This document shows, piece after piece, positions 52,124 through 53,857 of a stretch of 64,000 nt of DNA. The stretch comes from an uncultured Holophagaceae bacterium (GTDB lineage Bacteria; Acidobacteriota; Holophagae; Holophagales; Holophagaceae): contig CAIWKE010000036.1 of NCBI GenBank assembly GCA_903913215.1, forward strand, positions 124,001 through 188,000, in the 5' to 3' direction. The position numbers and the translations under genes were made by a program. Below the pieces are notes generated by a model. It was not told the origin of the DNA. It worked only from the letters and a program-made list of their open reading frames with translations, and ran no database searches. Every line of letters starts with the position of its first letter. Position 1 is the stretch's first letter.

Positions 52124-52750
52124 CTAGTAGTACGCGGGCATGACGGCCTGGATGACCACGGGCTTGCCGCTCATGCTGTGGAGGTAGTTCACGATGATCT
52201 CGACGTTGGCCACGACTTCGGGGATGGGCACCCCCGCGTGCAGGTCGTTGTTCCCGATCATGAGGAAGTAGCAGTCGATGTCCGGGTGGATCAGGGTGTC
52301 CAGGCGCTTGATGACATCACCGGAAGTCTCGCCGTCCACGCCCATGTTGTAGGCCTTGATGCCCAGCAGGTCATCCCAGGTGGCGGGCTTGGTGCCGTTC
52401 TGGACCATGGCCACATAGGTGCGATTGGTGATGGAGTCGCCCACCATCCCTGCGCAGGTGACGGCATTGGCCTTGATGTACGAGGCCAGGCGGGCATCCA
52501 CCCAGCGCAGGTAGCCCAACTCCGAGAGGTGCTCTCCGTCGGGCATGTAGAAAAAGACCAGGGGCTTGCCATCACTGCCCACCAGGATCGAGTAGGTATC
52601 GAGGTAGGTGTCCTTCAGCTGGGTGGCCTTGTCGGCCAGGGCCATGTTCAGGGCCCGGACTTGGATGTTGCTGAGGTGCCCATCGTAGGTGTGGCTGCAA
52701 CTCATCAGCAGGCAGGCTCCCAGTGGCAGAAGTAGGGATCTGATGCGCAA
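52124..52750 (-). CDS. Lipoprotein with circularly permuted SGNH hydrolase motifs
   Basis: 208-residue predicted lipoprotein (lipobox LLMSC, Cys18), started by TTG 52750 after GGAGG. It has all blocks of an SGNH/GDSL esterase, but in rotated order. The block usually last, with catalytic Asp and His, comes first (MPDGEHLSELGYLRW, Asp71 and His74), preceded by the segment that normally sits before it (VRALNMALADKATQLKD). The usual first block follows: GMVGDSITNR (Ser106), then NMGVDGETSGDV (Gly), then LMIGNNDL (Asn168). The chain ends at KPVVIQAVMPAYY, normally mid-protein. The joint lies between an N-terminal signal and a natural stop, so it is not a frameshift. Substrate unknown; an esterase or acyl-hydrolase at the cell envelope is likely. 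Confidence 0.78.
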   Translation of the reverse strand: MRIRSLLLPLGACLLMSCSHTYDGHLSNIQVRALNMALADKATQLKDTYLDTYSILVGSDGKPLVFFYMPDGEHLSELGYLRWVDARLASYIKANAVTCAGMVGDSITNRTYVAMVQNGTKPATWDDLLGIKAYNMGVDGETSGDVIKRLDTLIHPDIDCYFLMIGNNDLHAGVPIPEVVANVEIIVNYLHSMSGKPVVIQAVMPAYY

Positions 52751-52933
52751 CCAACCTCCGGTGGGTAAGGCGCCAGAGCAGCCACGGCGCGATCAAGGGA
52801 CTATCCAGCTTAAAGCAGACCCGGCCTTGGATTCTGAGGTAGAGGAAAAGAATCCAGTTCAGGGCAAAGTGGTCACACGGAACGGGAAAAAATCAATATT
52901 GAGGCCTACAATGATTGGTTTGGAGGAGATCCC

Positions 52934-53857
52934 TTGGTCCGTGGGCACTGGAAGGCTGCCAAGAAGGCCTGGCTCTGGAGCCTCCAGGTGTACCAGCACC
53001 CTCCTGGCGGGCGCTTCCACTTCAAGCGGCACCTGCGCTGGGCTACGGCCGCAGCCCTGCGGCCCGGGGCCTCCCTGGAGTGGTTCTCATTCCACGAGGA
53101 TCCAGCCCATGCTGGCTTCGTGGCGGCCAATCCCCGCCTGGTCTTCCGGGCCATGACCAGCTACATGTCTGTGCGCTGGGGGCTCAGGCGGCGCATCAAG
53201 GTCATCCAGGACACCTACAGCCTCATCGCCCGCCGGGGGGGCTTCCTGGCGGAGGCCCTGCAACGACCCGAGGGCGCCGTCCTGGCCAGGCTGGATCTGG
53301 AGCGGGGCGTGCAGGCCCGGATCCGCCTGGGCAGTGACGCGCAGTTTCGCAAGGAGGGTGAGCTTTCCGTGTTCCTGGAGGTGGAGGGGATGGAGGGCTC
53401 CGTCACCGGCATGGCCCTCAGCCTGGAGCAGGAAGGCGAGTGGGTGCTCCGAATTGGCGGGATGCAGGGGCGCAAGGGCGGGGAAGAAGAGACCATCAAG
53501 CTCCTGACCAAGGCCATGCACGGCCTGCGACCCAAGAACCTCATGATCCTGCTGGCCCAGGAGCTGGCCCTGGTGCTGGGCATTCCGGCCATTCGCGGCG
53601 TGGGGAACGGCATTCAGGTCTTCCGGGCCCGGCTGAACAATCCCTTCGTGCCCAAGCGCAAGATCCGCTTCGACTTCGACGCCCTCTGGACCGAAGTGGG
53701 CGGGGTGGAGCTGGAGGATGGCTGGTTCGGCCTGCCCCTCACCACGCCCAGGCGCGGTCCCGACGAAATCAAACCCAACAAGCGCTCCATGTACGCCAAG
53801 CGCTACGCCATGCTCGATGACCTGAGGCATCAAATCTGGGAACAGCTGGCGCTCTGA
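52934..53857 (+). CDS. VirK/YbjX family protein (DUF535)
   Basis: 307-residue protein of the VirK/YbjX family, known from enterobacteria for envelope or peptide-resistance phenotypes without a defined reaction. Matching features are VRWGLRRRIKVIQDTYSLI, a central block VFLEVEGMEGSVTGMALSLEQ, RKGGEEETIKLLTKAMHGLRPKNLM and the C-terminal KPNKRSMYAKRYAMLDDL. Start TTG 52934 is supported by GGAGGAG five bases upstream; the ATG at 52911 is out of frame. Divergent from the permuted hydrolase gene. Confidence 0.82.
   Translation: MVRGHWKAAKKAWLWSLQVYQHPPGGRFHFKRHLRWATAAALRPGASLEWFSFHEDPAHAGFVAANPRLVFRAMTSYMSVRWGLRRRIKVIQDTYSLIARRGGFLAEALQRPEGAVLARLDLERGVQARIRLGSDAQFRKEGELSVFLEVEGMEGSVTGMALSLEQEGEWVLRIGGMQGRKGGEEETIKLLTKAMHGLRPKNLMILLAQELALVLGIPAIRGVGNGIQVFRARLNNPFVPKRKIRFDFDALWTEVGGVELEDGWFGLPLTTPRRGPDEIKPNKRSMYAKRYAMLDDLRHQIWEQLAL

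Follow-up and report, generated by a model that had tools for sequence, protein, structure and literature searches.

The window analysed here is a stretch of 64,000 nucleotides from an uncultured Holophagaceae bacterium, and its minus strand encodes a small putative lipoprotein of the SGNH hydrolase superfamily in which the last conserved sequence block comes first (Table 1). The lipoprotein signal comprises the first 18 residues and ends with LLMSC, a lipobox that was judged by eye. Translation starts at a TTG codon (52748-52750), which is common to all nine aligned orthologs and is preceded by GGAGG in most of them; the conserved TTG start perhaps results in lower expression.

The next gene begins 17 nt downstream and encodes a barrel-like protein that matches the Pfam family OMP_b-brl below the cut-off and whose relatives elsewhere in the family are all distant. 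It is probably part of the same operon. The divergently oriented DUF535 gene also occurs in other genomes of the family that lack the permuted gene, and is not dependent on it. As far as the contigs extend, the neighbourhood formed by these three genes is retained in genomes with different outer flanks. The barrel and DUF535 genes hint at a role in the modification of envelope glycans or lipids.

Table 1. Features of the permuted SGNH lipoprotein locus (positions refer to the window).
Feature	Position	Strand	Remarks
Putative circularly permuted SGNH hydrolase lipoprotein gene	52124..52750	-	208 aa + TAG, TTG start; orthologs in ten genomes
Ribosome-binding site GGAGG	52755..52759	-	4 nt ahead of the TTG start
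Signal peptide, residues 1-17	52700..52750	-	varies among orthologs
Lipobox Cys18	52697..52699	-	invariant, 9/9 aligned orthologs
Residues 27-93, corresponding to the C-terminal third of the canonical SGNH fold, here first	52472..52672	-	PDB, Pfam and pairwise alignments
Block V DGEH (Asp71, His74)	52529..52540	-	invariant in aligned orthologs
Residues 94-206, corresponding to the N-terminal two thirds of the canonical SGNH fold, here last	52133..52471	-	Pfam, pairwise and structure matches
Block I GDSIT (nucleophile Ser106)	52427..52441	-	invariant in aligned orthologs
Block II GVDGETSGDV (oxyanion Gly137)	52313..52342	-	Gly137 invariant in aligned orthologs
Block III GNND (oxyanion Asn168)	52244..52255	-	invariant in aligned orthologs
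New C-terminus, YY + TAG, right after strand beta-4	52124..52132	-	tail variable in orthologs
Downstream gene, outer-membrane beta-barrel-like protein, 203 aa	51495..52106	-	adjoins the permuted gene in 10/10 genomes
Divergent neighbour DUF535 (VirK/YbjX family)	52934..53857	+	flanks the permuted gene wherever the contig reaches far enough

Evidence for a circular permutation

The protein contains the motifs of the SGNH superfamily, i.e., the GDS serine, the Block II glycine, the Block III asparagine and the DxxH sequence of Block V, and these follow each other as H-S-G-N along the chain instead of the canonical S-G-N-H order of Lipase_GDSL_2 proteins. When the native sequence was compared with the Pfam profile Lipase_GDSL_2 (PF13472), it was recognized with an E-value of 1.4e-14 and a score of 55.5 bits, as against a curated cut-off of 32.9. 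This match consists of two stretches, of which the best aligns residues 103-204 with profile positions 2-111. On their own, residues 27-93 give a weak match (E 0.011) to profile positions 127-176, and equally weak matches to the same place (E 0.005 to 0.015) were obtained for all five orthologs tried. A phmmer search of the PDB with the native sequence likewise matched the sialate O-acetylesterase entries 6njc and 7pzg in two stretches each, in swapped order. After rotation to the canonical order, with residues 93-205 set ahead of residues 26-92, PF13472 is matched continuously from position 2 to 176 of 178, and 6njc in one stretch covering its residues 24-196.

Each half was also compared with nine canonical relatives by Smith-Waterman alignment, using 300 shuffles per comparison. 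Residues 27-93 align with the canonical C-terminal third with Z-scores of 7.9-14.2, with the exception of one relative, for which the Z-score of 4.6 lies below its best shuffle. Residues 94-206 align with the first two thirds, about canonical residues 11-104, with Z-scores of 11-19.

The AlphaFold2 model obtained from an input of permuted proteins and unaltered fragments of canonical viral relatives has a pLDDT of 87.7 and a pTM of 0.82, and all five models score alike; an input of only five permuted sequences yielded a poor model with a pLDDT of 54. In the predicted structure, a helix comprising residues 77-94, which corresponds to the canonical last helix, is connected by a four-residue turn to strand 99-103, the canonical beta-1, and the chain ends just past strand 198-201, the canonical beta-4. 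Ser106, His74 and Asp71 would probably lie close together in this fold. With Foldseek and VIA-align, TesA, AlinE4, CrmE10 and the Bacteroides sialate O-acetylesterase matched residues ~94-208 through their N-terminal two thirds, in most cases at 2 to 3.7 A. That aligners tied to sequence order match just this part of the protein is as expected for a circular permutant. Neither AlgX nor PatB1, which are discussed below, is among the structure matches listed, an observation that carries no weight either way.

A sequence-only reading of the window had already proposed an SGNH protein with its last block in front, and the match that is split and swapped in the native sequence and continuous after rotation bears this out. 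Its numbering of Asp71, His74, Ser106 and Asn168 was correct, and Gly137 could be located as well. It had placed the cut in the loop before the last third of the fold, in agreement with the present assignment to the segment that joins strand beta-4 to the next helix. The proposed lipoprotein signal at the new N-terminus agrees with the invariance of Cys18 in nine orthologs, and the proposed retention of all catalytic residues with that of Ser106, Gly137, Asn168, Asp71 and His74. We consider it highly probable (roughly 0.87) that the open reading frame encodes a real circular permutant of a canonical Lipase_GDSL_2 esterase, and that this protein is exported to the cell envelope and tethered there by a lipid.

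Conservation, distribution and origin

Homologues with the same block order exist: full-length orthologs are present in 10 of 47 genomes of the same Holophagaceae genus. Nine of these ten permuted proteins were included in the ortholog alignment, where they display 67-75% identity to the protein of the window and differ mainly in the signal peptide and in a few residues past the last strand. The pairwise dN/dS ratio of the gene is ~0.17, with 0.16 for the first half, 0.19 for the second half and 0.55 for the signal region (residues 1-26). Thus, the permuted order is maintained by purifying selection across ten related genomes.

These data also bear on the possibility that the block order reflects an assembly artefact or one half of a tandem SGNH repeat, both raised as caveats in the sequence-only reading, or a frame accident. 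Although tandem SGNH proteins do occur in the phylum (L096, see below), the permuted gene is found on separate contigs in ten genomes, has its own start, signal peptide and stop, is under purifying selection and has no second SGNH domain beside it at the locus. The occurrence in ten genomes, the invariant residues, the dN/dS ratio and the conserved barrel gene exclude an assembly error, a pseudogene and a tandem-repeat half, and the probability left to explanations of this kind is negligible.

A maximum-likelihood tree was calculated for 61 domains, with the permuted sequences rotated and no AlgX sequences included. The ten permuted proteins form one clade (100/100) with a long stem, which is nested among proteins of canonical order. 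This indicates that the permuted order probably arose once, while the long branches leave the exact sister of the clade uncertain. A search with a permuted profile revealed no other permutants in 396 Acidobacteriota genomes, and none were detected in 77 genomes of the family or in plasmid and phage collections; all relatives on viral contigs whose open reading frames were read have the canonical order. As far as searched, with a scan of GTDB contigs that reaches only near relatives, profile searches of the phylum, and searches of the plasmid and phage collections, the permutant is confined to one genus. A match on a Microvirga plasmid, covering query residues 55-204, was considered as a second permutant and rejected, because its open reading frame has the canonical order and the extended alignment is therefore spurious. 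The corresponding canonical SGNH protein of the Microvirga ossetica plasmid (L115:3920-4654) is unannotated in the collection used.

Circular permutations usually arise by tandem duplication of a gene and subsequent loss of the outer parts. The permuted lipoprotein may have originated in the same way. In G011, a genome that contains the DUF535 gene and lacks the permuted gene, no SGNH gene is present at the corresponding place, and none was detected in the short flanks of six other such DUF535 loci; a direct ancestor was thus not found in place. Another Acidobacteriota genome contains a 526-aa frame with two tandem SGNH domains (L096:670-2247, minus strand). A protein of this type is the kind of intermediate that would be expected for a permutation by duplication; the L096 protein itself does not lie near the permutant clade.

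Relation to known SGNH proteins

In the broad sense, the SGNH superfamily includes permuted families (PMC9487903). AlgX/AlgJ, PatB1 of the DHHW family and WssI are circularly permuted SGNH proteins with an H-S-G-x order (PMC9487903, PMC4148444, PMC5697884, PMC10302187), and the suggestion of the sequence-only reading that no described family has this order was therefore wrong (PMC9487903, PMC4148444, PMC10302187). AlgX/AlgJ are characterized by a GTSYS motif in Block I, a tyrosine at Block III and DxH in Block V, and PatB1 and the DHHW family by the motifs KDS and TDHHW (PMC9487903).

The protein described here could be regarded as a short member of this group of permuted O-acetyltransferases, with which it shares the H-S-G-N succession of blocks (PMC9487903, PMC4148444, PMC10302187) and the envelope location. 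AlgX/AlgJ and WssI are indeed circularly permuted envelope proteins with the H-S-G-x order (PMC9487903, PMC4148444, PMC10302187), and PatB1 contains a circularly permuted SGNH core (PMC9487903). However, AlgX/AlgJ and WssI are larger O-acetyltransferases or esterases with extra elements, GTSYS, a Block III tyrosine or aspartate and DxH, while the permutant carries the canonical GDSIT, Asn168 and DGEH. PatB1, a Gram-positive protein with a beta-sandwich-like cap, differs by its KDS and TDHHW motifs, neither of which is found in the permutant. Pfam searches detected no ALGX or DHHW match at E-values up to 1, in contrast to the Lipase_GDSL_2 match at 1e-14, and in the tree, from which AlgX sequences were absent, the permutant nests among canonical Lipase_GDSL_2 proteins. 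Membership in the AlgX/PatB1/WssI group is accordingly very improbable.

Its closest counterparts are proteins of canonical order. The best sequence match in the PDB, with an E-value of 8e-14 for the rotated profile, is the sialate O-acetylesterase of Bacteroides/Phocaeicola vulgatus (6njc, 7pzg), which has the same blocks and can be superposed with residues 96-208 over its N-terminal two thirds. It differs from the permutant by its S-G-N-H order and its intact loop after beta-4, and the identity between both proteins is about 24-25%. Within the phylum, the closest canonical relatives found (E 1.6e-16) are Lipase_GDSL_2 proteins of another Acidobacteriota family (L078-L081). One of them, L078, likewise resembles a lipoprotein, with an LSC lipobox recognized by eye. 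In contrast to the permutant, these proteins have the canonical order and a loop after beta-4 that is ~12 residues longer.

The new aspect is thus best called an independent and compact permutant of an ordinary Lipase_GDSL_2 esterase that retains canonical motifs, as similar re-ordering had so far been described only for distant and altered members of the SGNH superfamily. Few natural circular permutants still have canonical relatives in which the motifs are unchanged. The apparently single event and the availability of canonical cousins for comparison make the consequences of the permutation for folding, stability and the position of the anchor directly testable. Because a partial GDSL lipase of ordinary type is all that annotation by profiles reports for the protein, other permutants may be hidden among such entries.

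Active site and membrane anchor

By homology, Ser106 would act as the nucleophile that is activated by His74-Asp71 and attacks an ester, while Gly137 and Asn168 would provide the oxyanion hole. The protein would act as an esterase, most likely by removing O-acetyl or acyl groups from an envelope glycan or lipid; the substrate is a guess based on the ~25% identity to a sialate O-acetylesterase.

A permuted SGNH fold that has lost catalysis, for example a lipoprotein that plugs the neighbouring outer-membrane barrel or assists in its assembly, would also be compatible with the strict pairing of the lipoprotein gene and the small barrel gene in 10/10 genomes. Pairs of lipoproteins and barrels are frequent in bacterial envelopes. 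A dead enzyme would, however, not usually keep five catalytic residues and their surrounding motifs invariant at 67-75% identity, and a non-catalytic role is therefore unlikely.

For the presumably active enzyme that we favour, the permutation could have consequences for its orientation. The permutant is probably anchored to the membrane via a lipid on Cys18, which is located 10 residues ahead of the first helix. In the SGNH fold, the active site is found at the C-terminal ends of the parallel beta strands. A canonical N-terminus enters before beta-1, on the side opposite the active site. The N-terminus of the permutant would be located in the loop that follows beta-4, on the same side as the active site. 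With the N-terminus moved to this side, the active site should turn toward the membrane. In L078, unlike in the permutant, the lipid anchor precedes beta-1 and is located several tens of residues ahead of the GDS motif. As the loop after beta-4 is longer in the closest canonical relatives, the cut in the permutant may also open the active site.

One tentative and rather doubtful explanation for the fixation of the permutation is that the moved anchor re-aims the esterase and gives it, jointly with the co-encoded barrel protein, access to acyl or acetyl groups at the membrane surface. If true, circular permutation would alter where an enzyme acts and leave its chemistry unchanged.

The sequence between GDSIT and a conserved tryptophan contains an insertion of ~12 residues (52382-52426, residues 109-123 of the permutant), which is missing in the canonical relatives aligned and differs between two subgroups of the permuted proteins.
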